This document shows, piece by piece, positions 585 through 20,951 of a stretch of 27,852 nt of DNA. The DNA is from a virus: positions 868 through 28,719 of IMG/VR virus record IMGVR_UViG_3300030109_003585; one strand, given 5' to 3'. The position numbers and the translations under genes were made by a program. Each line of letters begins with the position of its first letter. The stretch's first letter is position 1. The notes beneath the pieces are model-generated. The model saw only the letters and a program-made list of their open reading frames with translations, searched no databases and was not told the DNA's origin.

Positions 585-3002
585 ATGGCAGAGTCTGGCA
601 TTAAAAGTTATTTCCCGAGTCAAACTGTAAGCGACGCTGAAAAGCTTAGCTATGATTATGGTTTAAGAGTAGGTAAGGCAATTGAAACAGAATGGTTTAA
701 TAGCGATAGAAGTATTAACAAGTATAAGTCTAATCAAAATAATTTTCATAATTTAAGATTATACGCTAGAGGCGAACAGTCTATACAAAAATATAAGGAT
801 GAGTTGTCTATAAATGGTGATTTGTCCTATTTAAATTTAGACTGGAAGCCAGTACCTATTATATCTAAGTTTGTAGATATAGTTGTTAATGGTATAGCTG
901 AAAGAACTTATGATATAAAAGCTTATTCTCAAGATCCGTTTGGCATGGAAAAGAGAACAAAATATGCTGAAGCTTTAATGTCTGATATAAGGATGCAAGA
1001 GTACAACACTTTTGTTGCACAGTTTGGAATAGACTTAACAAAAAGTAATGTTGAACAATTGCCAGAAAGTATTGAAGAAGCTGAATTGTACATGCAGTTA
1101 ACTTATAAACAAGCTGTAGAAGTTGCTGAAGAACAAGCTTTAAATGTTTTATTTGAAGGTAATGATTATGAGCTTATAAAGAAAAGATTTTATTACGACC
1201 TTACAGTTCTTGGTATTGGTGCTGTAAAAACATCTTTTAATACTTCTGAAGGTATAGTTATTGACTATGTAGACCCAGCAAACTTAGTTTATTCTTATAC
1301 TGACTCGCCTTACTTTGATGATATATATTATGTTGGTGAAGTTAAAACAATACCTATAAACGAATTAGCAAAACAATTTCCTCATTTAAGTGAAAGTGAT
1401 TTAGAGGATATAATGAAGAATAAGTATAACAATAGAAGTAATTATAACAGTAGACACTCTACACACAAAGAAGATAACAACACTATACAAGTTTTATATT
1501 TTAATTATAAAACATATATGAACGAGGTTTATAAAATAAAAGAAACTGGTAGTGGTGCAGATAAAATTATACCTAAAAACGATCAATTTAATCCACCAGA
1601 AAACATGGAAGGTGGTTATAGTAAAATGTTAAGATCTATCGAGTGTCTTTATGACGGTGCAATGATTTTAGGTACAAATAAATTACTTAAGTGGGAAATG
1701 GCAAGAAATATGATGCGCCCTAAAAGTGATTACACTAAAGTTAAAATGAACTATGCTATTGTAGCTCCTAGAATGTATGACGGTAGAATTGATTCACTAG
1801 TAAAACGTATAACTGGTTTTGCTGACATGATACAACTCACGCATTTAAAATTACAACAAGTAATGTCACGTATGGTTCCAGATGGTGTTTATTTAGACGC
1901 TGATGGTTTAGCTGAGGTTGACCTTGGTAATGGTACTAATTACAACCCTCAAGAAGCTTTAAACATGTTCTTCCAAACAGGTAGTGTTATTGGTAGATCG
2001 TTTACTCAAGATGGTGATATGAATCCTGGTAAAATACCTATTCAAGAAATAACTAGCGCAAGTGGCGGTAATAAAATGCAAGCTCTTATTGGTAATTACA
2101 ATTATTATTTGCAAATGATAAGAGATGTAACCGGATTAAACGAAGCTAGAGATGGTAGTACTCCTGACAAAAATGCTTTAGTTGGCGTTCAAAAACTAGC
2201 TGCAGCAAACAGCAACACAGCAACAAGACATATACTTCAAGCTGGTTTATACTTAACAGCTGAAACTGCTGAATGCTTATCACTTAGAATATCTGACGTT
2301 ATAGAATATTCACCAACAAAAGATGCTTTTATACAAGCTATTGGTTCTTACAATGTAGAAACACTAGAAGAAATTTCACAACTTCATTTATATGACTTTG
2401 GTATATTCATAGATTTAACTCCAGATGAGCAAGAACGTCAATTACTTGAAAACAATATTCAAATGGCTTTACAGCAACAAAGTATAGATTTAGAAGATGC
2501 TATTGATCTTAGGGATATTAAAAATATTAAATTAGCAAATCAACTTTTAAAAATAAGAAGAACTAAAAAGCAAGAAAGAGACAGGCAGATGCAATTAGAA
2601 AATATTCAAGCGCAGACACAGTCTAACTCACAAGCTGCACAAGCTGCCGCTCAAGCAGAAGTACAAAAAGAACAAAGCTTAAACCAAACTAAAATTGAAT
2701 TAGAAACAGTTAAGTCTCAACTAGACGAGGGCAGAATGACTAAAGAAGCAGAATTAAAAAAAGAGTTAATGGCTTTAGAGTTTGAGTACAACATGCAATT
2801 AAAAGGAATTGAAGTTGAAGGTCAAAAATCAAAAGAAACAGAAAAAGAAGATCGTAAAGACGAAAGAACAAAAATTCAAGCATCACAACAAAGTGAGATG
2901 ATTGAACAAAGAAAGACGGGTAAACCACCTAAAAACTTTGAATCTTCAGGTAATGATATATTAGGTGAAGGTATTGATTTAAGTGGATTTACTCCTCGTT
3001 AA
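585..3002 (+). CDS. Portal protein
   Basis: An 805-residue protein in the position and size range of portal proteins of large podoviruses. The portal forms a dodecameric ring at one capsid vertex through which DNA is packaged and released, and it docks the terminase and the tail. The first ~640 residues are mixed alpha/beta with the long helices and acidic loops usual for portals (for example the stretch around MARNMMRPKSDYTKVK and the later ITSASGGNKMQALIGNY). From about residue 655 to 785 the sequence is almost pure Gln/Ala/Glu/Lys heptad-like helix, which would form a coiled-coil barrel extending into the head, as in portals of P22 and crAss-like phages (family knowledge). The start follows the leader AATAATAAAT with no Shine-Dalgarno motif. 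It sits between terminase and scaffold. No catalytic motif is expected or seen. Confidence 0.87.
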   Translation: MAESGIKSYFPSQTVSDAEKLSYDYGLRVGKAIETEWFNSDRSINKYKSNQNNFHNLRLYARGEQSIQKYKDELSINGDLSYLNLDWKPVPIISKFVDIVVNGIAERTYDIKAYSQDPFGMEKRTKYAEALMSDIRMQEYNTFVAQFGIDLTKSNVEQLPESIEEAELYMQLTYKQAVEVAEEQALNVLFEGNDYELIKKRFYYDLTVLGIGAVKTSFNTSEGIVIDYVDPANLVYSYTDSPYFDDIYYVGEVKTIPINELAKQFPHLSESDLEDIMKNKYNNRSNYNSRHSTHKEDNNTIQVLYFNYKTYMNEVYKIKETGSGADKIIPKNDQFNPPENMEGGYSKMLRSIECLYDGAMILGTNKLLKWEMARNMMRPKSDYTKVKMNYAIVAPRMYDGRIDSLVKRITGFADMIQLTHLKLQQVMSRMVPDGVYLDADGLAEVDLGNGTNYNPQEALNMFFQTGSVIGRSFTQDGDMNPGKIPIQEITSASGGNKMQALIGNYNYYLQMIRDVTGLNEARDGSTPDKNALVGVQKLAAANSNTATRHILQAGLYLTAETAECLSLRISDVIEYSPTKDAFIQAIGSYNVETLEEISQLHLYDFGIFIDLTPDEQERQLLENNIQMALQQQSIDLEDAIDLRDIKNIKLANQLLKIRRTKKQERDRQMQLENIQAQTQSNSQAAQAAAQAEVQKEQSLNQTKIELETVKSQLDEGRMTKEAELKKELMALEFEYNMQLKGIEVEGQKSKETEKEDRKDERTKIQASQQSEMIEQRKTGKPPKNFESSGNDILGEGIDLSGFTPR

Positions 3003-3029
3003 ATTTATTAATTATTATTATATTATATT
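3003..3029 (+). promoter_or_regulatory. A/T-only leader before the scaffold gene, near-copy of 5755-5783
   Basis: The gap between portal and scaffold-like gene contains only A and T. It shares a run of about 30 bases with the leader at 5755-5783, including the identical 14-mer ATATTATATTATGG that overlaps the start codon (3020-3033 here, 5774-5787 there) and a TTTATTAATT block upstream. It may be a late promoter or a translation-initiation leader. No standard -35/-10 pair can be claimed, and low complexity makes chance similarity possible. Confidence 0.3.
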
Positions 3030-4226: not shown

Positions 4227-5711
4227 ATGGCAATTACTGCAGGAACTAATTTGAATAGTATACCTTCTTCACAGAAGCAAACACTATCTACAAATTATAT
4301 CGATTTTACGTCTACAGCGACAGCTGGTTGGGCGCAACAATATTTACCAGATCTTATGGAGAAAGAAGCTGAAGTGTTCGGAAAAAGAACTATTTCAGGA
4401 TTTCTTGCTCAAGTAGGAGCTGAAGAGGCTATGACTTCTGATCAAGTTATATGGTCTGAGCAATCAAGATTACACGTTTCAGTAAAAGGTACTGTTATTA
4501 CAGCTGGTTCTACAAACGGAACATTTACTGTTACTAGTGATATTGATGGAAATGTATCAGGTGATGGATATACAGTGGCTAATCACGGTGTTAGAACTAA
4601 TGATATTGTACTTATTGCAAGTGCTGGTATAGTTACACAATGTTTAGTTGTTGATGCTGATACAGCTGTTATACAAGTTGAACCGTATGACAAAGCTGAT
4701 TTAACTGGTCATGCTACAGGAACTGGAGCTTCAACTTTATTAGTTGTTGGTTCTGAATATGCAAAAGGAACTACTTATCTTGATGGTAATGGTTCTGCTG
4801 CTGATTCAAGAACTCCAGCTAACGAAGCTACATTTAAGTCTTTTACTAACAAGCCAATCATTTTAAAAGATTACTATGAGATCTCTGGATCTGATGCTTC
4901 TAGAATTGGTTGGGTAGAAGTTTCAACTGAAGAAGGTGGTGGTGGTTACATGTGGTACTTAAAAGCAGAAGCTGATACAAGAGCACGTTTTACTGATTAC
5001 TTAGAAATGGCAATGCTTGAAAGCGTTGTAGGTTCGAATTCAACAGTTGTTGATACAACTTTAGGTGCTTCTGCTGATGGTGGCGTAGGTACACAAGGTT
5101 TATTTGCTGCTATTACAGATAGAGGTAATGTTACTTCTGGTGTTACTGGTGTTAACTCTGCAACTGATTTAGCTGAGTTTGATGCAATACTTGCTGAGTT
5201 TGATAACCAAGGTGCTATTGAAGAAAACATGATGTTTGTAAATAGAGCTACTAGCTTAGCTGTTGATGACATGTTAGCTTCTATGAATTCTTACGGAGCT
5301 GGTGGTACTTCTTACGGAGTATTTGACAACTCAGAAGATATGGCGCTAAACTTAGGTTTCTCTGGATTCCGAAGAGGTTCTTATGACTTCTACAAGTCCG
5401 ACATGAGATACTTAAATGATAAAGCTACTAGGGGTGGTATTAATGCTGCTGCTACTACTGCTGCTATCAGAGGGGTTATTGTTCCAGCTGGTGTATCTTC
5501 AGTTTATGACGAGCAACTAGGTAAAAACATGAAACGTCCTTTCTTACACGTACGTTACAGAGCTTCTCAAACAGATAATAGAAGACTTAAAACTTGGACT
5601 ACTGGTTCAGTTGGGGCTGCTACATCTGCTTTAGACGCAATGCAAATGCACTTCTTATCAGAAAGATGTTTAATTACTCAAGGTGCTAACAACTTTATGT
5701 TAATGAAGTAA
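4227..5711 (+). CDS. Major capsid protein (HK97-fold type)
   Basis: A 494-residue protein following the scaffold-like gene. The N-terminal region (residues 24-75, around WAQQYLPDLMEKEAEVFGKRT and the TSDQVIWSEQSRLHV segment) and the C-terminal region (GKNMKRPFLHVRYRAS, then a predicted helix and a final segment ending NFMLMK) match in character the capsid proteins of marine Bacteroidetes podoviruses that I recognise. Residues ~86-160 form a beta-rich Thr/Val/Gly segment that may be an extended E-loop or an inserted domain on the capsomer surface. Codon use is noticeably smoother and richer in preferred codons (GCT, GGT, ACT, TCT) than in neighbours, as expected for the most abundant virion protein. 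A strong terminator follows directly. The leader is A-rich (AATTTAAAAAAATAAAAAA) and lacks a Shine-Dalgarno motif. Confidence 0.9.
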   Translation: MAITAGTNLNSIPSSQKQTLSTNYIDFTSTATAGWAQQYLPDLMEKEAEVFGKRTISGFLAQVGAEEAMTSDQVIWSEQSRLHVSVKGTVITAGSTNGTFTVTSDIDGNVSGDGYTVANHGVRTNDIVLIASAGIVTQCLVVDADTAVIQVEPYDKADLTGHATGTGASTLLVVGSEYAKGTTYLDGNGSAADSRTPANEATFKSFTNKPIILKDYYEISGSDASRIGWVEVSTEEGGGGYMWYLKAEADTRARFTDYLEMAMLESVVGSNSTVVDTTLGASADGGVGTQGLFAAITDRGNVTSGVTGVNSATDLAEFDAILAEFDNQGAIEENMMFVNRATSLAVDDMLASMNSYGAGGTSYGVFDNSEDMALNLGFSGFRRGSYDFYKSDMRYLNDKATRGGINAAATTAAIRGVIVPAGVSSVYDEQLGKNMKRPFLHVRYRASQTDNRRLKTWTTGSVGAATSALDAMQMHFLSERCLITQGANNFMLMK

Positions 5712-6860: not shown

Positions 6861-7604
6861 ATGGTAAATATAGATACAATATATCAAAGAGTTTTAGCAT
6901 TAGCTAATAAAGAACAGAGAGGTTATATAACGCCTCAAGAATTTAACTTATTTGCCAACCAAGCTCAAATGGATATTTTTGAGCAATATTTTTATGACAT
7001 AAAACAATTTAATAGAGCTTCTGGAAATGACACAGAGTTTTCTGATCCGTTGCATATGTTAAATGATAAAATAAACATATTTGAAGTAGAACAAGATAGT
7101 AATTGGAGTTCTACAGTATTAACAAATAACCAACTAAACGCTATGATATTTCCAGAAGAAGTATATAGAGTTGGTGATATCAAAACTAATGGTAGACATG
7201 TTGAGATATTAACTAGTAAAGAGTTTCATGCTGCTAGAAGATCTTATTTAACCTCTCCAACTTTAGAAAGACCTATTGGCTATATAATTGGTAAAAGATT
7301 ATACATTGCTATTAGTGGTGGTTTAAATCCAACGTCTGGTCCTGGTTTTGTTGACGCTATTAATTCTAGTGTAGAAGTTAGTTACATAAGAAAGCCTTTA
7401 CCTGTTAGTTGGGGTTATGTTGTTGTTAACAGTAAAGCTATGTGGGATCCTAGTAATACTACTCATTTTGAATTACATCCATCAGAGCAAGGTGAATTAA
7501 CTGGTAGGATATTAGCGTTTGCTGGTGTTACTATAAAAAATCCAGAGTTAGTACAAATGGCAAGTATGATGGAACAGGGTAGAGTTGTAAACGAAAAACA
7601 ATAA
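6861..7604 (+). CDS. Ring/tail-adaptor type structural protein
   Basis: A 247-residue protein starting MVNIDTIYQRVLALANKEQ, followed by GYITPQEFNLFANQAQMDIF. I recognise this opening from structural proteins that are widespread in uncultured marine phages and Cellulophaga podoviruses. The N-terminal ~70 residues are helical; residues 75-190 appear beta-rich with YRVGDIKTNGRHVEILTSKEF and a later PIGYIIGKRLYIAIS strand pair; the end is helical again (SEQGELTGRILAFAGVTIKNP). By position (after the head genes, before the large tail protein) it probably forms one of the ring layers that join the portal to the tail, functionally like T7 gp11 or crAss-like ring proteins. It starts four bases after the previous stop and ends four bases before the next gene, so the two are surely co-translated from one message. 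Confidence 0.65.
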   Translation: MVNIDTIYQRVLALANKEQRGYITPQEFNLFANQAQMDIFEQYFYDIKQFNRASGNDTEFSDPLHMLNDKINIFEVEQDSNWSSTVLTNNQLNAMIFPEEVYRVGDIKTNGRHVEILTSKEFHAARRSYLTSPTLERPIGYIIGKRLYIAISGGLNPTSGPGFVDAINSSVEVSYIRKPLPVSWGYVVVNSKAMWDPSNTTHFELHPSEQGELTGRILAFAGVTIKNPELVQMASMMEQGRVVNEKQ

Positions 7605-7608
7605 ATAA

Positions 7609-8964
7609 ATGGCATACATAAACAATACTCAACAACAATATTCTGCTAATGAAAATTTTGGTGATTATCAATTCACTTCTTTAAACGATATAATAAATCA
7701 ATTTATGATTGTTTATGTTGGTGAAGATAAAGTTATACCAAAAGCAAAAAGAACAGATGTGGCTTTTCATGCTCAAAGAGCTTTAGCCGAATTATCTTTT
7801 GATACATTCAAATCTGTTAAATCTAGAGAAACTGAAATTCCAGCATCATTACAAATGATACTACCACAAGATTATGTTAATTATACTAAAATATCTTGGG
7901 TTGATAGTTCTGGTATTAAACATCCTATATATCCTACAAAACATACCTCAAGTCCAAGAAGTTATCAACTTGATGATAATAAAGAAAACCTTTTTGACAC
8001 AAACGGAAATATCATACTTTCAGGTGATTTAATTAAAAATGGTAATTTTCATGGCACTTCTAACAACTGGATATTAAATGAAATAGTTGATGCTAGTGGT
8101 AGTGTTGTAACACAAACAACCGTTGTTAGCACTGTTGCTGCAACACTAAACGATCCTGAACAAGGTTATTTTTACGGTTTTGATGGAAATGCTGTCAAGG
8201 CTTATTCTGTACCACAAGACCATAGCATAAGACAAGCAAATGTACCTATAGTTGCAAATGAAGATTATAAAATAAAATTCACGATTAGTGGATATAGTTC
8301 TGGTACTTGGTCTGTTAGAATAGTTGATGATAACGGAAACTTTTCAACTACAACTGGTGTGACAGCAAACGGTACTTATGAAGAAACAATAACTGCTAGT
8401 GGAACTGACGCATCAATGGCTTCTAATAGTGTTATTTTTATTAATACTAGTTCTTCATCAGGTACAGTTATTATTGATGATATATCTGTAGTTAGAGTTG
8501 GTAGTGAAAATGAAAGTACAACTTTATCTAGATATAGAGCGGTTGCACCATCAGAAAATAAAAGTGATGACTATGAAGATGATACATACTGGCCGTTAGA
8601 CGGGGAGAGATATGGACTTGATCCTGCTCATGCTCAAGCTAATGGCTCTTTTTATATAGATGAGTTACTAGGAAAAATACATTTTAGCTCTAATATTTCT
8701 GGAAAAACTGTGATATTAGATTATATAAGTGATAGCCTTGGTACACATGAAGAAATGAAAGTTCATAAATTTGCAGAAGAAGCTATGTACAAGCACATTG
8801 CTTACGCTGTTTTATCTGCTTCAGCTTATGGTCAATCTTTAGTTCCTAGATTTAGAAGAGAAAGATTTGCTGAAACTAGAAAAGCAAAATTAAGATTATC
8901 TAATATTAAATTAGAAGAAATAACTCAAACTTTAAGAGGTAAATCGAAACAAATTAAACACTAA
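7609..8964 (+). CDS. Ring/tail-adaptor protein with inserted carbohydrate-binding-like domain
   Basis: A 451-residue protein in two conserved halves separated by an insert. Residues 1-138 (FTSLNDIINQFMIVYVGED, AFHAQRALAELSFDTFK, LPQDYVNYTKISWVD) and 299-451 (RYGLDPAHAQANGSFYID, LGKIHFSSNISGKTVILDY, ending in a basic helix LRGKSKQIKH) resemble ring/adaptor proteins of marine Bacteroidetes podoviruses. Residues ~139-298 (bases ~8023-8502) form a separate beta-rich domain that begins LIKNGNFHGTSNNWIL and ends TVIIDDISVVRVG, the typical start and end of family 4/9/22-like carbohydrate-binding jelly rolls. This domain would project from the tail ring and could hold glycans of the host surface or algal polysaccharide. 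The ring role is inferred from position; the CBM-like call from pattern recognition. It is tightly packed with the genes on both sides. Confidence 0.65.
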   Translation: MAYINNTQQQYSANENFGDYQFTSLNDIINQFMIVYVGEDKVIPKAKRTDVAFHAQRALAELSFDTFKSVKSRETEIPASLQMILPQDYVNYTKISWVDSSGIKHPIYPTKHTSSPRSYQLDDNKENLFDTNGNIILSGDLIKNGNFHGTSNNWILNEIVDASGSVVTQTTVVSTVAATLNDPEQGYFYGFDGNAVKAYSVPQDHSIRQANVPIVANEDYKIKFTISGYSSGTWSVRIVDDNGNFSTTTGVTANGTYEETITASGTDASMASNSVIFINTSSSSGTVIIDDISVVRVGSENESTTLSRYRAVAPSENKSDDYEDDTYWPLDGERYGLDPAHAQANGSFYIDELLGKIHFSSNISGKTVILDYISDSLGTHEEMKVHKFAEEAMYKHIAYAVLSASAYGQSLVPRFRRERFAETRKAKLRLSNIKLEEITQTLRGKSKQIKH

Positions 8965-8968
8965 TTAA

Positions 8969-11900
8969 ATGCCGGAGATTAAAAACGAGTTCACCAGCGG
9001 AAAGATGAACAAGGATCTTGATGAGAGACTCGTTCCAAAAGGTGAATATAGACACGCGATGAATATACAAGTGTCGACATCAGAAGAATCTGAAGTTGGT
9101 ACTGTTCAAAATATACTAGGTAACGAGCAAGGCTGTAGTGATGCTTTAATATCTCCTTTCTCATATACAGTAGGCTCTGTTTCTGATGAAAAAGATGATT
9201 CTTTATATTGGTTTATATCTGGTTTAAATATGTCAGATTACGATACGCCAGGTTCTGGAGATATTTTACAAGCAATAAATCAACAAGAGAATTTATCGCA
9301 AATACTATTAGATTTTGAAAATGGCGATCAAAACATTATGTCTTTAAAAGATATGATTGTTAGAAAAAAGACAGATGAATCTTGTGAGCCTGTTTTTGTA
9401 GATTCGTTTGCTTTTTTATTAGCTAATAATGATGAGGTATATTTAGCAGGGCCTCCTTATGCTACTTGGATGATTGGTGTTGAAAAAGAAATAACAGATA
9501 TATGTGAACCTGGTTGGAAAGTAAGAGGTATTGATTCAAGTGGAAATGGTTTATCTTCAAGAACAATAACAACTATAAAAGATGTTACGGCCATACCTTT
9601 TACGGCTGAGTTTACGGTAGGTTATACACCAGTAATGCAACAGTTAGAATACGCTTTTCAAATTGAAAACATAGGAAGTGACGCTGCAAATCCTGTATAT
9701 AAAATTGTTAGAGATAAAATACTTGTAAGACCTGTTGTAGGTGACGTAAGTACTTTTAATCCTATAGCTGGTGCTACTATAAATCTTTTTCATCCTTTTG
9801 GACAGTGGGATCCTGTTGCTGTTTCTGATACAAATACTAATAATGTAGTAGTATTTACTGCTAACATTCCAGTTGGTGGTCCTGCTGGTGGTTTTGTTAC
9901 TTCAGATTTAGCTTTTGGTGGTACTGTTTACGGGTGTACAGATCCTACAGCTACCAACTACGATCCTAACGCAACAATAGATAACGGTTCGTGTTTCATT
10001 GCCGATGACGAAGCCGCTGATGACGATACTGTTTCATATGGTAGTTATAACTTACCAATAAGCCCTATACTTTATAGTGCCGATGGCGCTGGTGGTGGTT
10101 CTGGTGCGTGGACAAACGTAAGCTGGGTTCAAGTCGATTTAGCTCAAGATATTAATTTATTTAGTATGTTTAATGATTTTAGTATCATGCCGGATAATGT
10201 TGATGCTCAATATGTTAACATTAATGACAATCCAGCGGGACCGTTTGCATATTCTATTCCACTTGGTACTGTATATGGAAATGCTTCTTGGATGGTTCCA
10301 GATCCTGATGGTCAACCAACAGGAGAGTTAGTAGTAAATAGCAACTTTGATGATATATCTGTTGGAGATGAATTATCTTCTTTTGGTAATATGAATTATG
10401 ATCATACTCTTGATTTAGTTGTTGGTAGTAAATTTACTAGAACTAATAATGATGGTACTTTTGACGATATAATAACTATTGAAGACTCTAGCACTAGCAC
10501 ATTGCAAGTGCCATTTATGCAGTGGGGTAGCACAGGTGTTTTGGTTTTTAAAGAGCTTGATTTTAAAACAATAGTACTTAGTCCACCACCTAGTAATTGG
10601 GGTGCTAATGGTGATAACGTTGCAGCGTATTTATTTTACGGCGAAGAAAAGCGTGTTTTAAAGTTTAATAGAAATAGACTTATAACAGGAGTTAACATTA
10701 TAGATGATATGCTATTTTGGACAGATAACTTTAGTGAACCAAAAAAAATAAACATACCAGATAGTATAGAAGGTACTAATCCAAATGGAACAATACATAC
10801 TAGAGTTGTAAATAAAAAATTAAGTCCTCCTTTAGGACTAAAAGATATAAATATTACTAATATTGAATTACCTGTAAAGGAGCAGCATATAACAGTAATA
10901 AAACAATCACCAAAAGCTAAGCTAGTATTAGATTTAGAAACAGACAGAGAGATTGGAGAAAACTATACTGGCATAATGAGAATTACAACTCAAGATTATG
11001 CTAACCAATCGTCTTTTACAGGTAGCTCGGCAATAAAAGGGCGTTATGATTTTTCAGGCTTAGAAACTACTGGTGCTAATGACGATACTGATGCTGAAAA
11101 TACTATTTCTTTTAATATTGAATCAGATCTTGATGGAAACGATAACTTCACCTTAAATAATTGGAAAGAAGGTTCTACTATCATATTAAAAGAGTTTGAC
11201 GAGGAAGACAATGCACCAATTCCACCTATAACTGATTATAGTATAAAAGGTGTAATATCTGAATGGCAATATAATCGCTTTACTGGTACTTCATCAGATA
11301 AAGCTCGTGTTAAGATTGAAATAACATCCATAAAAGGAAATCCATCAGGCGTAGGTTATGGTGATATTCTTAAAAATTATGCAGTTGATCTTTTTGATCA
11401 AAATCCTAAAACGTTATTTCAATATAAATTCCCTAGATTTTCTTATAGATATAGATACAGAGATGGAGAGTATTCTACTTTTGCTCCTTTTACAGAGATA
11501 GCATTTATTCCTGGAAGCTTTGATTATCATGTTAAAAAAGGTTATAATCTAGGTATGACAAATAGATTAAGAACATTAAGACTAAAAAACTTTATTACTA
11601 GCGACATGCCTGAAGATGTTGTTTCTATTGATCTATTGTATAAAGACGATGCTTCTACAAATATTTATATAGTTGATACAATAAGTCCAACTGATCAAGC
11701 TAGTGATGGTGGTATGTATAATGATTGGGTGAAAAATAGATATAAATTAACTAGTGATACTATACGCGCGGTAATACCATCAAATCAATTATTAAGAGCT
11801 TATGATAACGTTCCTAGAAAAGCTTTAGCACAAGACATTGTAGGTAATAGAATTGTATATGGTAATTATGTTCAAGGATACGACATGATTGCTGATGGCA

Positions 11901-14900
11901 AAGAGTTTTCTCCAGTTTTTAAACATTATTTATCTGACAACAACACAACAGGTCTTGCTGCTAGTCAGTCAATAAAATCATTAAGAGATTATCAAATTGG
12001 AGTTGTTTTTACGGACAAATACGGTAGAGAAACACCGGTATTGACAAATAATTCTGGCGCTTTTAAAATAGACAAACTAGAGTCTCCTAATAGAAACAAG
12101 TTAAACGTAAAATTAAGAAACAATTCATTTCCAAAAGATGTAACTCATTTTAAGTTTTTTATTAAAGAAACTTCAGGCGAGTATTATAACTTACCAATGG
12201 ACAGATGGTATGATGCAGACGATGGTAATATCTGGTTATCTTTTCAATCTTCTGATGTAAATAAAATTGATTTAGATACTTATATAGTTCTTAAAAAAGG
12301 AGAGGATTCAACTAGTTTGGTTGAAGAATCCGCTAGGTATAAAGTTTTAGCAATATCAGATCAAGCGCCAGAGCACATTAAAAAAGAAGTTAATAATATT
12401 GGAAAAATACTTCAAGGTGTTGAAGATGATGATGGTGATAGTTTAGATGATAGACTGTTTGTTAGTGATTCAGACTGGCCGTTAATTGGTGGTAAAACAT
12501 TTGTTTGTAATAAAAATAGACTTGGTAAAGGTAACAGTTTATATGGTATAGTTGACATAAAAGAAACTCTTTATGTTGAGTTTAGGCAGGGTAGTAAAAT
12601 ATCTGAAAGGTATAAAATAACAATGGTGTCTAGAGATAGAATTGCTGGAGACGTTGGTGATGTTGATGGTGATTTTGGATTTACTGTAGAAAGACCTTTT
12701 GAAAGTGACATTAGTTTTATATTTGAAGGATCTTCAACTGCACCTCAAGGTATATTTAGCGATGTATCTGTGGTGTTTTACAAAGAAGAAATAATAAACT
12801 CTCCAAAATTTGATGGTAAATTTTTTGTAAAAATATACTCTGACGAGGTTTTTTATAAAAATATTGGTAATATATATGATATTCAAGATCAAGAATACAA
12901 TATATTAGGTCGTAAAAAAATATATTTATTACCTGGAGATCTTAAAAAAGCTCATAATCGTAATGATTATAAAGCTTTTGGAGATGAAAACTGGTTTTAT
13001 GATCTTGTTCGTAGAGGATCTTCAGACTGGGATGCTGGTCTAAGCGAAGGTAGTATTAGTGGGGCTGGTCCTTTTTTAAGCAAGATGCGTGATGTTGGAG
13101 GAGAAGTAATAGGTGGTGGAATGCATAACCGTCGACATTTTTGGCAAACTGGTATGGCTCAACATCCTAGTGATTTTCAATATTGGAGAGCGTTTTTTAA
13201 ACATGATATATCTAGTGTTGCTGTAAAATGGGGTGGTATTGGTACTATGTTTTCAACAGTTCCAGAAGCTAATCAAGATGTAAATTTACCTTTTGATCCA
13301 GACAAAAGTACTTACGAAGAATTTTCTAATGGAGTAGATGATGATAATTTTAGAAAAAGAATGCCAACTACATGGCATCCCGCTTTTGGAGCTACTCCAG
13401 GAACTAAAACAGCTAATTTTACAACTGACATGTTTGATTGCATGCTTCTAGATAGATCTTTAAGAAACGATGCTGAAAATGGATATGAAGATGTTTATTT
13501 TATTGACGCTGGTCAGTATAAAGGTGTTCATGGTAGTGATTGGCGAAGATGGGCACACGAAACTTATGGTCCTTCAGGCAAGAGTAAATCAGGAAGAAAA
13601 ACAAGCACGGGTATAACTAACTATGGTAGCTCTAATGATGGTAAAATGGAATTAGCTATTGGTCCTATAAGACAAGAAAGTGGTCTGATGTGGATGGATT
13701 ATGATGATGATTTTGAAAATGAAAACTTTTGGACGTTTGATAGACAAGATTGGTACGAATCAAATAGTTTTTTTGATAGATTTACACCAGGGGCAAGATT
13801 TAGATGGAAAGAAGATCCTACAGGAACAATATATACCGTATATGGTAGCACTGCACGTAGAAACCGCCTTAGATATTTGTCATATAGAAAAATTGATCAA
13901 GCTGTAGGTGATGAATCTGATTTAGCAAAAGATTCTATTTCATCACACCGAAGAAAAGCACCATTTACTCATTTAGCTGAAAATCATACAAAAGGATTTA
14001 AATCATATTTTAAACCTAGAATGCAATGGAATCCTCAAGGTAGTGGAGAAGGTGTGATTAGTGGAAGTAGAAAAATTAACAAAATAAAAACAACAGCAGA
14101 TGGCTCTCCAGCTAATTTAATGAGTGATGGTACTTTTGGTGAAAATTGGCTTAGAATAGACCAAAATAATTTTCAATATACTTACGATAGTGAGTACAAC
14201 GAAAGAGCTCCTTTAGAAATAGGTATGATGCTTTATAGAATAGGTACTACTCAAGTAACTAGTTGGACTGATAATACTGGAAAGTTATTAAACCCACTTA
14301 TTATTAAAGATATAAATAGAAACGACAATGGGTATTATTATATTTATTTTAACGGTTATGATAGAGCTTCTTTACCTACTCCATTAAATGACGGCTCATC
14401 TCCTGGTTTTTCTGGAACACCACAAGCTTTAGATTTTAGACAACCTAAAATGAATGGTTTAAGCGAAAACTCTAGAAGAAATATAAATTATTATAGCAAT
14501 GAAACACTTGGTCAATTTAACATTAATAGTGAGTACCTTACACCAACAGGAACCGAACATCATATTGGTATTGCTGCTATTGGATATACTTTAGAATTTG
14601 TTGTACCAATAGAAAGAGAAAAACCTTTACCTACAAATCCTTCTGTTTGGGAAACAGAACCAAAAGAAGGAACTGATTTAGATATATATTATGAAATAAC
14701 AGAAAACAACCCTGTATACTTAACACAAGAAACAGCTAAAACTGCATTTCCTATAGGTTCTGAAATATATATAAATGAAGGTGGTCATTGGGATCCTGAT
14801 AAAACAGTAAAAATAACAGGTATAAACGAACAAGAGTTTGATAGAATTAGATTAAGTCATCCGGTATGTGGTGGAGGTTCTGACTGTGTAAATATAGACG

Positions 14901-17900
14901 AAAATAATTTAGTAGCACTTTATCCTGGAAGTTACATTAAAATAAAAAGACCAAGTGGTATATTGTTTACAGCAAAAGTGGCTGATGTAGGTAGCAACGT
15001 TGGACATGATGATGCTCCAAGTGAAGTTGCAGGATCTTTTGTGCAAGAATTAAAAATAGAACATGATTTGTATAGAGGTAATCATCGTTTAAATTGGCAT
15101 AACTGTTTTTCTTTTGGTAATGGTGTAGAGTCTAATAGAATTGGAGATACTTTTAACATGCCATTTATTTCAAATGGTGTAAAAGCATCGTCAACACTAG
15201 AAGAAAGATACGAAGAAGAGCGTAGAAAACATGGCCTTATATATTCTGGTATATATAATTCAACTTCAGGTGTAAACAACCTTAATCAATTTATACAAGC
15301 TGAAAAAATAACTAAAGATATAAATCCAATATATGGTAGTATACAAAAGCTACATATGAGAGATTCTAATTTAGTAACACTTTGTGAAGATAAAGTTTTA
15401 AAAATATTAGCGCATAAAGATGCTTTATTTAATGCTGACGGAAATCAACAGTTAACAGCTACTGACAAAGTACTTGGTCAAGCAACTCCTTTTGTTGGTG
15501 AGTACGGTATATCTAAAAATCCAGAATCATTTGCTTCAGAATCATATAGAGCTTATTTTACAGATAAAGTTAGAGGTTCTGTATTACGATTATCTATGGA
15601 TGGTTTAACACCTATATCCGAGGCTGGCATGAAAGATTATTTTAAAGATAACTTAAAATTAAATAATAATCTTATAGGTAGTTATGATGATAAAAAACAA
15701 GAATACAACATAACGTTACAGCAAAGCGAAACTACTGTTACTTTTAGAGAAGACGCTGGTGGTTGGGTTAGTTTTAAATCGTTTGTACCAGAAAGTGGTG
15801 TTAGTTGTGCTAACGAATATTACACGTTTAAAAACGGTCAACTATGGCAACACCACAAAGAAAGCGTTGATAGAAATACTTTTTATAATTCTTTTATACC
15901 TTCTAGTTTTAACGCTATAATGAATGAAGGTGCTGGTATTATAAAAACATTTAATACTTTAAACTACGAAGGCTCTCAAGCTAAAGTAGATCAATTATTA
16001 TCTTATGATACATTTGCGCCAGGAACAAGCGTTGTTACCGCTACATATAGTGATAACGAATATTATAATTTACAAAATAAAGACGGTTGGTTTGTTGAGC
16101 ATATAAAAACAGATTTAGAAGAAGGAACTGTCAATGAATTTATAAAAAAAGAAGGTAAATACTTTAACTATATAAAAGGTAAGGTTGGTTCTATAAATAA
16201 TTCTTCAGGCGTAATACAATCTGGTTTTGACAATGCGGATAATTCTTTTCAAGGATTAGGTGTGGTTACAAACGCAGTGTTATCTAATGCTTTTGGTTGT
16301 ACTGATCCATTGGCGTTTAATCATAATGATAGTGCTAGTGTAGATGACGGGTCTTGTATAGATGTTGTTTCAGGTTGTACTGATCCACTAGCTGATGCTG
16401 GTTATGATGTTTCTCATAATACAGATGATGGTAGTTGTATTTATTATGGCTGTACTGATTCTACGGCAACTAACTACAATGCCGCTGCTAACACTAATGA
16501 TGGTTCGTGTATTGCTACTGTATTAGGTTGTACTGATTCTAGTACTTTTACAGCTGGTTCACCACCAACTAGTTATTATTCTTACATTAATTATGATAGC
16601 CTAGCTAATGTTGATGATGGTAGCTGTATTGCTACTGTGTTAGGTTGTGACAATCCTGCTGCTACTAACTATAACGCTAACGTAAATACTAATGATGGTA
16701 GTTGTGTTATATCTGTACAAACTTGTAATGATATTAATGCTTGTAATTACGATCCACAAGGAGATCAAGATGGTTACACTCACTCTTGGGACGCTGCTAG
16801 TTATTGTTTATATTGTGGAGATAATACAGCTAATAACTTTGATGGCGCAACAGGAAGTTGTATCAGTACTTGTGAGTACTGTATACTGCCAACACCAAAT
16901 GTTCTTAATTTACTCTATAAAACCACATCTCAAGTTGCTGTTCAAGTTACACTTCCAAGTGCTACAAACGCAGCGACAGCAAGCAGCGTTATTTTTCAAT
17001 ATTATGAAACTTCAAATCCAGGAGTAGTTACTACTCAGTCTTATAATCCAGTAGGAGCAACACCTGGTGGTACTTATACATACGTTATCGTAGGATTACA
17101 AGATAACACAGAATATACAATTAATTATAAAATAGTTTGTAGTAACACTGAGTCTCCTGTTAGTGATAACTTAGTATGTACAACTGATCTTGTACTTGTT
17201 AATGGTTGTACGGATATTAATGCTTGTAATTATGATTCTTCAGCTAACAATGACGATGGTTCATGTGACTTTGCAACGTGTGCTGGGTGTACTGATCCTG
17301 CATACTTAGAATACTGTAACACTTGTTGGGATGCTGCTAATTTTGCAGTTGTACCAGAAGGAACTGGTGGTCCATGGCAACTTGATGATGGTTCATGTTC
17401 TACTTTAATAATTAACGGTTGTACTGATTCTACGGCTCTTAACTTTGATCCAGCTGCCAATGTTGATGATGGTTCATGCGTTGCGGTTGTTTTAGGTTGT
17501 ACAGATGATACTTTAGGTGTAGACGGCGCAATAGCAGCAACAAATTACGATCCAAATGCTAATACAGATGATGGAAGTTGTACTTATGAAACCTCTGCAA
17601 TTACAGGTTCATGGATTTTTAATACAAATGCAGGTGTACTTATTAATGCTGAATATATTGTTACTGTAGGTAATATACCTGTTGGTAGTATAATAAGCAA
17701 TCCAACTAATAACGTTGGTCAATCTAATAATCCAAGCGAAGGATTTAGTAGTAATCTACATAGTAGTTATTACTCTGGTGACCAAACAGCTATATCAGGC
17801 GTAAACACGTACTCTTTAGCTATAGTTCCAGAAAGTGCAATAACTCCAAACGCTTTAGCTGGTTTAATATATATGAATTTAGATCTTATTTCAGTAAACT

Positions 17901-18574
17901 ATAATGGCTTTATGTTGTCTGGTGGTATGTTTAGTGGTGGAGGTGGAGAGTTAATAACAATTGGCTGTACAGATCCTGCTGCTTGTAACTATGATTCTAC
18001 AGCTATTATAGATGATGGTTCATGTGTTATGCCTGATGGATGTGGTGATAGTAACGCTTTAAATTACGATAATACTGTAACTTGTCCAGATGATAATGAC
18101 TGCGTTTATTGCGCAACAGATCCTGGTATTACTAATGCTACTTTGTCTTTCAACACGTCTATTGTTAACGCTAACATTACTATAAATGCTGCAGAAATAA
18201 ATTGGAGCGGTTACAATAATACAAATACTAACGGTACTTTTCAATCTCAAGATGGTAATTTAAATGTTTACAAAGTAGAATATAGATACAAATTGCCTGG
18301 ACAAAGTTATAGTGCGTGGACAAGTGTTAGTTCAAACTCTTCAAACTGTAACGGTAATTATTATCATGTCCAGCTTACATATGGTCTTAGTGTTACTGGC
18401 TCGGAATTTGTAGACATGGGCTATGGTCTTAGTGGTGATGGAAGGTTTAACGCTGGAACGAAATGGAGGTTTAGAATTCGCAACCTATGCACTAACTGTA
18501 ACTTAGGTCCAGGCGGTATAACCACATGGTCACCAGTGTTTACATTGTCGCAAGACATTATATCAACTTTTTAA
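8969..18574 (+). CDS. Giant tail stabilisation/muzzle-type protein with cysteine-repeat and FN3-like C-terminus
   Basis: A 3201-residue protein. The N-terminus (EIKNEFTSGKMNKDLDERL, then YRHAMNIQVSTSEESEVGTV) is the recognisable opening of a large tail protein of marine Bacteroidetes phages, probably counterpart to T7 gp12 or the crAss-like muzzle that forms the distal tail tube. Landmarks of the conserved core: INIPDSIEGT preceded by IIDDMLFWTDNFSEPKK (YWTD-propeller-like), FSYRYRYRDGEYSTFAPF, NVPRKALAQDIVGNRIVYGN, and near residue 2400 KKEGKYFNYIKG. Accessory parts: a beta-rich insert from ~residue 255 to 545 containing one cysteine repeat (322-342); and residues ~2443-3050 with about twelve repeats beginning GCTDP and ending DDGSC, interrupted by a fibronectin-III-like domain (~2635-2735) and other beta-rich sections, plus a final FN3-like domain. 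The extra regions probably face outward and bind the host. The role of the core is from resemblance and gene order. Confidence 0.75.
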   Translation: MPEIKNEFTSGKMNKDLDERLVPKGEYRHAMNIQVSTSEESEVGTVQNILGNEQGCSDALISPFSYTVGSVSDEKDDSLYWFISGLNMSDYDTPGSGDILQAINQQENLSQILLDFENGDQNIMSLKDMIVRKKTDESCEPVFVDSFAFLLANNDEVYLAGPPYATWMIGVEKEITDICEPGWKVRGIDSSGNGLSSRTITTIKDVTAIPFTAEFTVGYTPVMQQLEYAFQIENIGSDAANPVYKIVRDKILVRPVVGDVSTFNPIAGATINLFHPFGQWDPVAVSDTNTNNVVVFTANIPVGGPAGGFVTSDLAFGGTVYGCTDPTATNYDPNATIDNGSCFIADDEAADDDTVSYGSYNLPISPILYSADGAGGGSGAWTNVSWVQVDLAQDINLFSMFNDFSIMPDNVDAQYVNINDNPAGPFAYSIPLGTVYGNASWMVPDPDGQPTGELVVNSNFDDISVGDELSSFGNMNYDHTLDLVVGSKFTRTNNDGTFDDIITIEDSSTSTLQVPFMQWGSTGVLVFKELDFKTIVLSPPPSNWGANGDNVAAYLFYGEEKRVLKFNRNRLITGVNIIDDMLFWTDNFSEPKKINIPDSIEGTNPNGTIHTRVVNKKLSPPLGLKDINITNIELPVKEQHITVIKQSPKAKLVLDLETDREIGENYTGIMRITTQDYANQSSFTGSSAIKGRYDFSGLETTGANDDTDAENTISFNIESDLDGNDNFTLNNWKEGSTIILKEFDEEDNAPIPPITDYSIKGVISEWQYNRFTGTSSDKARVKIEITSIKGNPSGVGYGDILKNYAVDLFDQNPKTLFQYKFPRFSYRYRYRDGEYSTFAPFTEIAFIPGSFDYHVKKGYNLGMTNRLRTLRLKNFITSDMPEDVVSIDLLYKDDASTNIYIVDTISPTDQASDGGMYNDWVKNRYKLTSDTIRAVIPSNQLLRAYDNVPRKALAQDIVGNRIVYGNYVQGYDMIADGKEFSPVFKHYLSDNNTTGLAASQSIKSLRDYQIGVVFTDKYGRETPVLTNNSGAFKIDKLESPNRNKLNVKLRNNSFPKDVTHFKFFIKETSGEYYNLPMDRWYDADDGNIWLSFQSSDVNKIDLDTYIVLKKGEDSTSLVEESARYKVLAISDQAPEHIKKEVNNIGKILQGVEDDDGDSLDDRLFVSDSDWPLIGGKTFVCNKNRLGKGNSLYGIVDIKETLYVEFRQGSKISERYKITMVSRDRIAGDVGDVDGDFGFTVERPFESDISFIFEGSSTAPQGIFSDVSVVFYKEEIINSPKFDGKFFVKIYSDEVFYKNIGNIYDIQDQEYNILGRKKIYLLPGDLKKAHNRNDYKAFGDENWFYDLVRRGSSDWDAGLSEGSISGAGPFLSKMRDVGGEVIGGGMHNRRHFWQTGMAQHPSDFQYWRAFFKHDISSVAVKWGGIGTMFSTVPEANQDVNLPFDPDKSTYEEFSNGVDDDNFRKRMPTTWHPAFGATPGTKTANFTTDMFDCMLLDRSLRNDAENGYEDVYFIDAGQYKGVHGSDWRRWAHETYGPSGKSKSGRKTSTGITNYGSSNDGKMELAIGPIRQESGLMWMDYDDDFENENFWTFDRQDWYESNSFFDRFTPGARFRWKEDPTGTIYTVYGSTARRNRLRYLSYRKIDQAVGDESDLAKDSISSHRRKAPFTHLAENHTKGFKSYFKPRMQWNPQGSGEGVISGSRKINKIKTTADGSPANLMSDGTFGENWLRIDQNNFQYTYDSEYNERAPLEIGMMLYRIGTTQVTSWTDNTGKLLNPLIIKDINRNDNGYYYIYFNGYDRASLPTPLNDGSSPGFSGTPQALDFRQPKMNGLSENSRRNINYYSNETLGQFNINSEYLTPTGTEHHIGIAAIGYTLEFVVPIEREKPLPTNPSVWETEPKEGTDLDIYYEITENNPVYLTQETAKTAFPIGSEIYINEGGHWDPDKTVKITGINEQEFDRIRLSHPVCGGGSDCVNIDENNLVALYPGSYIKIKRPSGILFTAKVADVGSNVGHDDAPSEVAGSFVQELKIEHDLYRGNHRLNWHNCFSFGNGVESNRIGDTFNMPFISNGVKASSTLEERYEEERRKHGLIYSGIYNSTSGVNNLNQFIQAEKITKDINPIYGSIQKLHMRDSNLVTLCEDKVLKILAHKDALFNADGNQQLTATDKVLGQATPFVGEYGISKNPESFASESYRAYFTDKVRGSVLRLSMDGLTPISEAGMKDYFKDNLKLNNNLIGSYDDKKQEYNITLQQSETTVTFREDAGGWVSFKSFVPESGVSCANEYYTFKNGQLWQHHKESVDRNTFYNSFIPSSFNAIMNEGAGIIKTFNTLNYEGSQAKVDQLLSYDTFAPGTSVVTATYSDNEYYNLQNKDGWFVEHIKTDLEEGTVNEFIKKEGKYFNYIKGKVGSINNSSGVIQSGFDNADNSFQGLGVVTNAVLSNAFGCTDPLAFNHNDSASVDDGSCIDVVSGCTDPLADAGYDVSHNTDDGSCIYYGCTDSTATNYNAAANTNDGSCIATVLGCTDSSTFTAGSPPTSYYSYINYDSLANVDDGSCIATVLGCDNPAATNYNANVNTNDGSCVISVQTCNDINACNYDPQGDQDGYTHSWDAASYCLYCGDNTANNFDGATGSCISTCEYCILPTPNVLNLLYKTTSQVAVQVTLPSATNAATASSVIFQYYETSNPGVVTTQSYNPVGATPGGTYTYVIVGLQDNTEYTINYKIVCSNTESPVSDNLVCTTDLVLVNGCTDINACNYDSSANNDDGSCDFATCAGCTDPAYLEYCNTCWDAANFAVVPEGTGGPWQLDDGSCSTLIINGCTDSTALNFDPAANVDDGSCVAVVLGCTDDTLGVDGAIAATNYDPNANTDDGSCTYETSAITGSWIFNTNAGVLINAEYIVTVGNIPVGSIISNPTNNVGQSNNPSEGFSSNLHSSYYSGDQTAISGVNTYSLAIVPESAITPNALAGLIYMNLDLISVNYNGFMLSGGMFSGGGGELITIGCTDPAACNYDSTAIIDDGSCVMPDGCGDSNALNYDNTVTCPDDNDCVYCATDPGITNATLSFNTSIVNANITINAAEINWSGYNNTNTNGTFQSQDGNLNVYKVEYRYKLPGQSYSAWTSVSSNSSNCNGNYYHVQLTYGLSVTGSEFVDMGYGLSGDGRFNAGTKWRFRIRNLCTNCNLGPGGITTWSPVFTLSQDIISTF
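9932..9994 (+). repeat. Isolated GCTDP...NGSC cysteine repeat unit
   Basis: One 21-residue unit (residues 322-342 of the giant tail protein) starts GCTDP, has NYDPNA in the middle and ends DNGSC. It is the same motif as the cluster at 16295-18112 but lies over 6 kb upstream, within a beta-rich insert next to an acidic linker (DDEAADDD). It probably caps or links an outward domain. Confidence 0.85.
16295..18112 (+). repeat. Cluster of about twelve cysteine/aspartate repeats in the giant tail protein
   Basis: Units coded at 16295-16357, 16373-16438, 16448-16510, 16526-16627 (expanded), 16643-16705, a degenerate pair in 16721-16861, 17204-17266, 17285-17398 (expanded), 17417-17479, 17495-17581, 17963-18025 and a degenerate 18038-18112. 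The typical unit is 21-22 residues: GCTD at the start, a central NYD or NFD with small residues, and DDGSC at the end. Each has two cysteines, likely joined, and acidic residues that could bind calcium. Repeats of this kind are known from secreted Bacteroidetes proteins (recalled). Some units are enlarged by inserts, and an FN3-like domain (about 16870-17190) and a beta-rich section (17582-17962) split the array. Confidence 0.9.
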
Positions 18575-18977: not shown

Positions 18978-20951
18978 ATGCCACATGAATACGGACATAC
19001 TGGTAATGGTAATGGTAGTAGCTCTTCAAGAGTTGGTAGAAATACAACTAATGCTCAGGGAAGAGTAGCTCCACCTGGATACCACTTTATGCCAGACGGA
19101 AGTTTAATGTCAGACGTTGAGCACGCTAGACTTTATGGTAGTGTTACTAGTGAACTTTTAACTGGCTTAAAAATAGACTACTCAGATATTCCACAAGATG
19201 GTGGTACTAAAACGTTTATTGTACAAGGTACTTCTAATGCTGTTTTTAGTTTAGAAGTAAAAGCTTCAAATGGTTATTATTATAACTTTACAACAAATCA
19301 ATTTCAAGTAGCTAAATACAGATTAGATAAAATACAAATTAATGGTGGTGCTTATCAGGGAATTATTACGTTTCCAGAAGTTAGTTCTGATGATCAGTAT
19401 GATATTTATTTTTGGGCAGAAACAAATACTAAACACTCTAAATATTATCAAGTAAGATTTGAAGATGGTAGTGTAGATTTAAATAGATCTAAAGGATCAA
19501 ATTCTTTGTTAATACAAAAAGTATTATATCAATATATTGATCACGATTTAACTTTATCTCCTTATTCTGCTGGTGGCACAATATCAGGTTCAGTGACGTC
19601 TGATACTATTAGCGTCTCCGCATCAACAAGCAAAACTTTTATTCCTTTTGAAATGAAAGTAACAGCAACTAGTGCTAATGTTTATACTATTACAACTCAA
19701 CCTACAGCAGAAGATTTTATAGCTTTTACAACCCCTACGGTTAGTAGTCCAGTTCAATTACCTGGAGAAAATATATATCCAACAGCTAGAGCTGCTTTTA
19801 CTGGTGATGATGTTAATGGCGCTGTTACTAGTGGTTCTGTAGTAAGAATGGATAATACAGATTTATCTGCGGTGATTGCAGTTGGAGACAAAATAACAGC
19901 AACTACAGCAACAGATACTGTAGATGGCGCTGTTTCTAGTTCTAATAGAATTGTAATGGATAGCAATGTTGCTGCAAAAATGGCTGTTGGAGATCAAGTT
20001 ACGGGAGCTGGTATTGCAGATACAGCTATAGTTACGGTTACACATTTAAATCCAGATAGTGATAACGCTAAAGAATTACAAGTATCAGAAGCTGTTAGTA
20101 TAAGCGATGGAGTTACTTTAACTTTTAGTTCTAAAGTTAATAGAGATTTAACAACCGTTACAGTTGTTGAAACCGAAGGCACTGCTACTGATTTTACAAT
20201 GTCGCAAGCTATTCAGTTTCGCGATAATCAACCTTTAGTTTTTACACCGCAAAAAAATTATCAATGGCAAATGAGTACTGTGCATGACTTAAAGCCTGGT
20301 ATGATTGCCGCACCAGACGGTACATCAGAAGAAAATACAGTTATTTCTGAATATAAAGACATAGTAAAACTTTATGAGAATACTGACGAAGAAATATCAA
20401 TTGTAAAGTTTAAAGAAAAAGCCGTTAAATCTTCAAAAAAGCCAACAATAACAAAGGGTAGAGTTACAGATCAAGACGGTACTATTGTCTTTAATAAACA
20501 ACAAAAACTTGCGCTTACTGATGTAACAATGAAAATAGGTGGTTACGGACAAGATATGATATTTTTTGTTAGTGGTTACAAAGTTAAGTTCAGAAACTTA
20601 AAGATAGAGCTAAATGAAATAACAACTACCACAACATCTAGCACGATTGGATCTTCAAGCACAAGTGTTGCTGTAGCGGCTAGAACTGGTATACTAAACG
20701 ATATAAGTATTGTTTCTGGAATAGGTATCGATGGATCTTCAGGATTACCTTTTGTAGATAGTGGCGCTGGGGCTACTAGTGCTGGTACTTTAGTTTTAAG
20801 TGCTGCTCAAGAACTAGAAAGTGGAATAACATTAACATTTACTGGATCTGGAAATATAGCTACAATAACTGGAGAAATACAAATACTAAGTGCTCCACCA
20901 TCAGACTTTACTTTAAGATTTGATATAGATAGAGTGCTAAAGCTAAATTAG
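18978..20951 (+). CDS. Beta-rich tail structural protein (fibre or baseplate-like)
   Basis: A 657-residue protein. Residues 1-33 are Gly/Ser/Asn-rich and flexible (MPHEYGHTGNGNGSSSSRVG), followed by APPGYHFMPDGSLMSDVEHA, an opening often seen in phage tail proteins next to the tail tip. Residues 60-240 look like two or three beta-sandwich domains (Ig-like or FN3-like). Residues ~281-355 hold two related 36-39-residue modules (GAVTSGSVVRMDN..., then GAVSSSNRIVMDS..., each followed by AVGD) and a relative recurs near residues 550-625. The last ~30 residues form a final strand pair ending RFDIDRVLKLN. No enzyme motif is seen. It is probably a tail fibre or fibre-attachment protein exposed on the virion. 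The function is inferred from composition and position. The 56-base gap behind it shows no clear promoter or terminator. Confidence 0.6.
   Translation: MPHEYGHTGNGNGSSSSRVGRNTTNAQGRVAPPGYHFMPDGSLMSDVEHARLYGSVTSELLTGLKIDYSDIPQDGGTKTFIVQGTSNAVFSLEVKASNGYYYNFTTNQFQVAKYRLDKIQINGGAYQGIITFPEVSSDDQYDIYFWAETNTKHSKYYQVRFEDGSVDLNRSKGSNSLLIQKVLYQYIDHDLTLSPYSAGGTISGSVTSDTISVSASTSKTFIPFEMKVTATSANVYTITTQPTAEDFIAFTTPTVSSPVQLPGENIYPTARAAFTGDDVNGAVTSGSVVRMDNTDLSAVIAVGDKITATTATDTVDGAVSSSNRIVMDSNVAAKMAVGDQVTGAGIADTAIVTVTHLNPDSDNAKELQVSEAVSISDGVTLTFSSKVNRDLTTVTVVETEGTATDFTMSQAIQFRDNQPLVFTPQKNYQWQMSTVHDLKPGMIAAPDGTSEENTVISEYKDIVKLYENTDEEISIVKFKEKAVKSSKKPTITKGRVTDQDGTIVFNKQQKLALTDVTMKIGGYGQDMIFFVSGYKVKFRNLKIELNEITTTTTSSTIGSSSTSVAVAARTGILNDISIVSGIGIDGSSGLPFVDSGAGATSAGTLVLSAAQELESGITLTFTGSGNIATITGEIQILSAPPSDFTLRFDIDRVLKLN
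19818..20040 (+). repeat. Two tandem beta modules in the tail structural protein
   Basis: Unit A (about 19818-19925, residues 281-316) and unit B (about 19926-20040, residues 317-354) both begin Gly-Ala-Val, continue with Ser-rich and V/I-V-R/V-MD segments, and place AVGD at the same distance. They look like duplicated short beta modules, diverged at both protein and DNA level. Confidence 0.6.

Follow-up and report, generated by a model that had tools for sequence, protein, structure and literature searches.

An exchangeable domain slot in the predicted tail-neck ring protein of crassvirus-like phages

Studies of how host recognition varies among tailed phages usually look to fibres, spikes and tail tips. 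In the crassvirus phicrAss001, the tail rings are dodecamers located between the portal and the muzzle, and the docking hubs of the fibres sit on two of them, R1 and R2 (PMC10172136). The neck passage structure (NPS) of 936-group lactococcal phages is variable and dispensable, with a function stated to be unknown (PMC4759559), and NPS proteins of lactococcal phages swap C-terminal domains, some of them with carbohydrate-binding domains (PMC10684548). The dodecameric adaptor of roseophage R4C bears an Ig-like domain at its periphery that touches portal and capsid; the authors of that study judge the domain too near the head to be likely to act in adsorption (PMC10276861). Away from the neck, the archaeal virus HFTV1 has a carbohydrate-binding module on its capsid turret, which is proposed to be a first, reversible glycan anchor (PMC12494034), and Vibrio phage Peru-2 has a glycan-binding module in its tailspikes (PMC13320782). 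Here we describe a variable module on a conserved neck ring. The accessible portion of an article on the family of phage Calle (PMC8776804) makes no mention of such a domain, and no description of such a ring slot was found in the titles and abstracts of the open-licence literature, which is weak evidence of absence as subscription journals lie mostly outside it.

The DNA analysed, referred to below as the window, comprises 27,852 of the 28,719 bases of its source viral record. Its genes follow the order portal, a 390-aa ORF, a capsid-type structural protein, more ORFs, a 451-aa protein and a 3201-aa protein, and the features used in this work are as follows.

585..3002, plus strand: portal protein, assigned by its phrog profile (phrog_6547), which places the ring gene in a neck context
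4227..5711, plus strand: virion structural protein (phrog_13704); the Calle_1 gene at the equivalent place is annotated as major capsid protein
6861..7604, plus strand: virion structural protein of 247 aa (phrog_14543), directly before the 451-aa gene
7609..8964, plus strand: predicted tail-ring or adaptor-type protein of 451 aa, phrog_13977 family, from the ORF, the phrog match and the fold of homologue L055
7609..7956, plus strand: conserved N-terminal flank, with helices and the first beta strands of the ring protein, from alignment and model
7957..8508, plus strand: exchangeable segment, residues ~117-300, replaced or missing between relatives, from alignments and the DNA edges of L003 and L081
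8023..8502, plus strand: predicted CBM16/4/22-type jelly-roll insert of group A, residues 139-298 (~160 residues), from the model fold and a 19-member group
8509..8961, plus strand: conserved C-terminal flank, with the other beta strands of the ring protein and its long C-terminal helix, from alignment and model
8969..18574, plus strand: muzzle-like tail-tip protein of 3201 aa, the next gene after the ring gene
~15869-16177, plus strand: crAss_MUZ_C match at residues 2301-2403 of the 3201-aa protein (Pfam E 2.1e-5)

The crAss_MUZ_C match in the 3201-aa protein scores 25.3 bits, just below the Pfam cut-off of 27. In Calle_1, a Cellulophaga phage, the gene at the same place passes this cut-off with both crAss_MUZ (45.9 bits) and crAss_MUZ_C (65 bits), and it is clearly a muzzle protein. 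The C-terminal part of the 3201-aa protein (window positions 16295-18025) also contains repeated GCTD...DDGSC cysteine motifs at residues ~2443-3019, with another near residue 322, a pattern that occurs in secreted flavobacterial proteins. Farther downstream, a 298-aa ORF (21539-22435) shows a weak match to Peptidase_S74 (chaperone of endosialidase) near its end (22223-22312, E 0.014), and a large ORF that leaves the window (23976-27851) has a HEIGH motif at residue 1060 (27153-27167), presumably zinc metallopeptidase-like.

The preliminary description of this DNA had proposed that the 451-aa protein is a ring or adaptor protein with conserved flanks, interrupted by a carbohydrate-binding-like domain. 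Both halves of this structural proposal are supported by the comparisons that follow, and its suggestion that such a domain could hold the phage in the polysaccharide matrix around algal or flavobacterial cells is a hypothesis. The protein matches phrog_13977 with E 1.2e-46, a family annotated merely as virion structural protein, and gives almost no Pfam rows. A search of viral structure models returns a 455-residue protein with 36% identity as its best match, followed by a structural protein of a Tenacibaculum phage. To view the scaffold by itself, we used a model of an insertless homologue, L055, built from 40 aligned sequences (mean pLDDT 68.9, pTM 0.57). Its top solved matches are two chains of phicrAss001, 7qog_B (Z 10.7, 196 aligned residues, rmsd 7.5) and 7qoi_FS (Z 10.6, Foldseek E 1.4e-6), with a tail-barrel chain of the same phage, 7qoj_D, at Z 7.1; for helical folds, values of Z below ~13 can be common with this search tool. 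After phicrAss001 come tail-entry chains of KHP30, VP1, GP4, Pa223, SU10, Moo19, N4 and T7, and the first 33 of the best 50 fold rows are phage portal, neck, connector or short-tail entries, mostly without a chain name (T7 gp11 is named at row 26). The rmsd of 5.7-8.2 in the first five rows is high, so the agreement is one of arrangement more than of detail. When the ring alignment was searched with hmmsearch against PDB sequences, the phicrAss001 ring chains included, no match was seen at E 1. The matched phicrAss001 chains, which have 226-229 residues and lie beside the portal, are taken to be ring protein R1. On the basis of these models, with the connector-ring fold found in that of L055, the 451-aa protein is predicted to be of the tail-ring or adaptor type. 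The insertion site is modelled as a loop between beta strands, and in the L055 model pLDDT is below 50 over most of residues 114-178.

With an N-flank profile we find one ring gene in each locus, the loci being short stretches, with the exception of L024 (3435-7512), in which the ring gene occurs in three tandem copies and the third is cut by the contig end. The first two copies carry inserts of group C (defined below), which the visible part of the third resembles by eye. By analogy with phicrAss001, these tandem copies could build a longer tail barrel. The 247-aa protein upstream of the ring gene was considered as a second ring paralogue and rejected, as hhalign finds no profile similarity between it and the ring family.

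As for the interruption, the segment that begins with GDLIKNGNF and ends with IDDISVVRVG is found at residues 139-298 (8023-8502), as the preliminary description had it, and the jelly roll it had proposed there on the pattern of carbohydrate-binding modules (CBMs) is predicted. An AlphaFold2 model of the window protein, made with an alignment of 25 unaltered sequences, has a mean pLDDT of 72 and a pTM of 0.49, and in ten-residue blocks over residues 141-300 the pLDDT ranges from 48 to 95. Confidence is modest both here and in the L055 model. In a comparison with VIA-align 2, model residues 138-297 match the CBM16 structure 2zey with Z 13.5 and an rmsd of 2.7 over 124 residues, in agreement with the described segment nearly to the residue. 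Below CBM16 follow CBM4, CBM22, CBM61 and a hyaluronan-binding module, and the CBM16, CBM4 and CBM22 matches span Z 10.7-13.5 with 8-22% identity in the alignments. Foldseek against solved structures ranks first a hyaluronan-binding module (4d0q, E 7e-7) and a porphyran-binding CBM (8xmz), with many CBM4, CBM16, CBM22 and CBM61 entries in the lower rows. Porphyran is an algal polysaccharide. These models indicate a jelly roll of the CBM16/CBM4/CBM22 type over the whole domain. Insecticidal Cry and Vip3 domains, which have this fold too, occur in the same lists with Z up to 12.5, and a jelly roll of this kind can also function without binding any sugar. By sequence, the window insert comes closest in Pfam to DUF642, with E 0.014 and 15.6 bits, below the cut-off of 27; no Pfam CBM family is reached, and CBM_4_9 (PF02018) is absent among the rows at E up to 1. 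Among the 19 distinct inserts of its group, which share 8 invariant and 7 nearly invariant alignment columns, PF02018 matches two, at best with E 0.00083.

In order to see what relatives carry at this site, viral contigs were scanned with the full window protein, and 80 of 86 loci were kept. Of these, 78 loci provide 79 gene copies with both flanks, after exclusion of L056, L073 and the cut third copy of L024; 73 copies reach the gene end and the other six are cut by the contig end after the insert. Of the six scan patterns, two fall inside the insert and one at its edge, so the following counts are slightly biased toward group A. All inserts, 74 in number, occupy one and the same loop, and five copies are insertless, so the segment is not present in all homologues. 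By content, 35 copies carry group B, 31 group C and four group A, five carry nothing, and four are singletons (L006, a distant relative of A; L028; L046; and L066). The slot content is roughly 100-280 residues long. A second scan was aimed at group A and covered 37 loci, with 22 A copies, four of them already seen in the first scan (L100, L104, L105 and L112), one insertless copy, and 14 loci in which a similar domain occurs in proteins without ring flanks. Because this targeted scan was added, the group sizes in the clustering and in the flank tree below are not frequencies.

Clustering of the inserts with phmmer gives groups of 31 (B), 29 (C) and 19 (A) distinct sequences, plus singletons. 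L066 was set by hand as a class of its own (F), as the automatic boundaries had called it insertless, and L040 stands in the clustering and the census with an overlong insert and in the tree with a truncated C flank. The alignments made of groups B and C hold 23 of 31 and 23 of 29 members, respectively. In hhalign comparisons, B reaches at most 5% probability against A or C, and the 16-35% between A and C over 31 columns is doubtful; A and L006 are possibly related (50-65%). The insert of L046, at the same site, is a Laminin_G_3 lectin-like domain (Pfam E 1.6e-20). For groups B and C, Pfam and solved-structure sequence searches gave nothing convincing, and collection scans with single proteins as queries returned only the query or an identical copy. 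Median insert identity within a group is 43% for A, 35% for B and 32% for C (the overlong L040 insert is in the C figure), compared with 67-70% for the flanks. A motif of group-B inserts, the repeated VGMxVxGPxI, has a resemblance in the window itself, at VGDQVTGAGI in a 657-aa ORF (19986-20015).

Group-A-like segments also occur in the large ORF that immediately follows the ring gene, in L113 (3638-7207, E 2.6e-9), L089 (4980-8501, E 2e-6) and L010 (6366-11360, E 1.6e-5). In L113 the ring gene is insertless while the downstream ORF has the segment. From these sequences, the group-A domain seems to move between adjacent tail genes.

Several comparisons point to exchange of the slot contents beyond divergence alone. 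A tree of the flanks (93 rows, 273 columns; ultrafast bootstrap not settled, and four outgroup rows as long branches) requires at least 23 changes of slot content, where 7 is the least possible, and 14 when A, B and C alone are counted. With shuffled labels the mean is 50 changes, so slot content is also partly inherited; indeed, the nearest neighbour by flank identity has the same content in 67 of 91 rows. Individual pairs show the exchange. L079 and L002 have flanks that are 85% identical and inserts of different groups, B and A. L003 and L081, which hold A and B and whose record names place both in metagenome 3300037427, show 79.6% DNA identity as far as base 5350 of L003 and 82.3% again from base 5947, with no DNA match at E 1e-5 in between and with 90-93% identity in the 30 bases adjoining each edge. 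The stretches beside the slot are colinear at ~75-82% DNA identity while the content differs between phages. L097 is a mosaic: its insert is 89% identical to that of L093 and 45% to that of L089, while its C flank is 97% identical to L089 and 73% to L093. In the N flank it stands equally near to the two, at 77-79% identity, and the upstream crossover is therefore not placed.

Substitution rates were compared in same-group pairs with at least 85% flank identity, from which L040 was excluded; 19 pairs are informative and a twentieth is identical, and since pairs share rows they are not independent. Insert dS exceeds flank dS in 14 of the 19, several-fold in places, and is lower in five. In L062 and L063 it is five times higher (1.14 in the insert, 0.22 in the flank). 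Higher insert dS is expected for imported segments. Insert dN/dS is 0.12-0.77, thus below 1 in all 19 pairs, and above the flank value in all 19. Chimeric assembly as a source of these patterns was rejected, as identical proteins come from different samples (L079/L080/L081, L002/L003, L086/L087 and L098/L099). Taken together, the loop at the tail neck is a module slot whose contents are exchanged by recombination.

Cultured relatives extend the insertless class. A search with the insertless protein of L055 finds 85 records of named phages, whose names refer to Flavobacterium (68), Cellulophaga (15), Maribacter (1) and Caudoviricetes (1). In 84 of the 85, one continuous match covers 80% or more of the L055 protein. 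The 40 of these matches that were examined are all in a single piece, with no room for an insert, and the proteins look insertless at the level of sequence, which suggests that relatives from Flavobacterium, Cellulophaga and Maribacter can do without the insert. When the window protein is the query, matches are found in 79 named records, none over 80% of the query, and the alignments of Panino, Calle_1, elemoF and ctfjg026 confirm that the insert is missing. Searches of the named phages with the group-A inserts of the window and of L088, at E 0.1 and 0.01, give no match. Six loci lie on genome contigs, four in metagenome-assembled genomes (MAGs) labelled Bacteroidota and two in MAGs labelled Maricaulis and Aliivibrio; given these last two labels, hosts assigned by binning are not trusted. 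One locus with a group-A insert (L123) is in a MAG labelled Sphingobacteriales, and the one labelled Maricaulis (L124), whose insert resembles group C, is probably misbinned. The marine phages with this neck ring probably infect Bacteroidota.

These observations suggest a working explanation. The 451-aa protein would be the ring subunit of a crassvirus-like short tail, expected below the portal in 12 copies if the relatives are a guide, and one loop of its beta domain would be a permissive slot. In the window phage the slot would be filled by the CBM16/4/22-type jelly roll, which should stand outside the neck; its size and the geometry of related rings point outward, and twelve domains of ~160 residues are unlikely to fit inside the DNA channel. 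Recombination in the conserved flanks would swap the contents among relatives, whether these are jelly rolls, a domain with a double repeat, a LamG lectin-like domain or an empty slot. The predicted fold suggests that the insert may bind glycan, and its most likely use would be weak, reversible and multivalent attachment to host polysaccharide, in the envelope or matrix, ahead of receptor contact by the tail tip, with a presumed benefit to adsorption. A ring with an exposed loop, expected in 12 copies, would suit the repeated display of a weakly binding module, and two occupants, the CBM-like group A and LamG, are of sugar-binding fold types; we therefore think that the slot would serve multivalent polysaccharide binding. 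A fold is assigned for A and LamG, and not for B, C, L028 and L066, so some of the occupants may have no part in glycan binding. For this whole explanation, with its ring slot, exchanged content and outward glycan-binding module, we see the chances as evenly balanced. The further reading, in which the ring loop is an adhesin slot fed by recombination that presents 12 identical lectin-like modules per virion away from the fibres and the tip, and by which lineages re-tool their polysaccharide binding, we hold tentatively, as falling a little short of even.

The best surviving alternative is that the slot domain is structural, either clamping the ring to capsid or portal or docking or spacing tail fibres or hubs, and changes with its partner. 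This would predict slot content that co-varies with capsid, hub or fibre genes. The peripheral Ig-like domain of the R4C adaptor, which touches portal and capsid, is read as stabilising (PMC10276861), and that reading weakens the adsorption explanation and strengthens the structural one; likewise, rings R1 and R2 of phicrAss001 form the interface with the fibre docking hubs (PMC10172136), and it is this group that our scaffold matches. A structural part is harder to reconcile with the five insertless copies among 79 and with contents that differ between phages colinear nearby at about 75-82% DNA identity, and we regard it as unlikely, if worth serious attention. Less probable still is a non-specific decoration, in which an exposed loop tolerates domains that persist by chance, much as promiscuous Ig-like domains do in other phages. 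While the several different groups in one loop could be shuffled by recombination alone, a domain is retained in 74 of 79 copies, both A and LamG have folds of sugar-binding types, and the insert dN/dS values given above, from pairs that share rows and are not independent, also speak against chance retention. Finally, the domain might bind a non-host polysaccharide, such as algal glycan or marine particles, and hold virions where hosts gather, as is proposed for glycan-binding domains of the T4 capsid in gut mucus (PMC12494034) and as the porphyran-binding fold neighbour and the Flavobacteriia hosts of the matching named phages would allow, but a common fold does not give the ligand, and we find this the most improbable of the three.

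The ring slot, with recombination exchanging its contents, identifies a place at which a ring protein of crassvirus-like tails tolerates insertions, and one scaffold offers a natural set of surface domains, some of them lectin-like. It also raises the question of whether the neck is a second multivalent glycan contact in phages of polysaccharide-rich Bacteroidota. If the explanation of the slot as a polysaccharide-binding site is true, cassette exchange at one ring site re-tools such binding as fibre-tip exchange does elsewhere.

Compared with the known systems, the scaffold is closest to the ring proteins of phicrAss001 (gp43, gp40, gp35 and gp34), whose vertex chains are its best fold matches, and here too a predicted muzzle-like tail-tip protein follows in the gene module. 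phicrAss001 has several ring proteins; here the N-flank profile shows one ring gene in each short locus, L024 excepted, and the accessible part of its description mentions insertions in the capsid protein and the muzzle and none in the rings (PMC10172136). The domain itself resembles CBM16, CBM4 and CBM22 as a jelly roll over the whole insert, and differs from them in its 8-22% identity and the lack of a Pfam CBM match. The NPS shares with the present slot a variable, dispensable neck feature with exchanged domains, some carbohydrate-binding (PMC4759559, PMC10684548), but it is a separate gene in siphophages of Gram-positive hosts, whereas here the module lies inside a ring-protein loop of a crassvirus-like short tail. 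R4C likewise has an accessory beta domain at the periphery of an adaptor, which as described is N-terminal, Ig-like and part of a siphophage (PMC10276861); here the slot is internal and exchanged and holds several kinds of domain. HFTV1 offers a proposed glycan contact away from the tail tip, in its case on a separate capsid turret protein rather than in a slot of the neck ring (PMC12494034). Domain exchange at the neck is already known from lactococcal phages, and glycan-binding modules away from the tail tip have been proposed.
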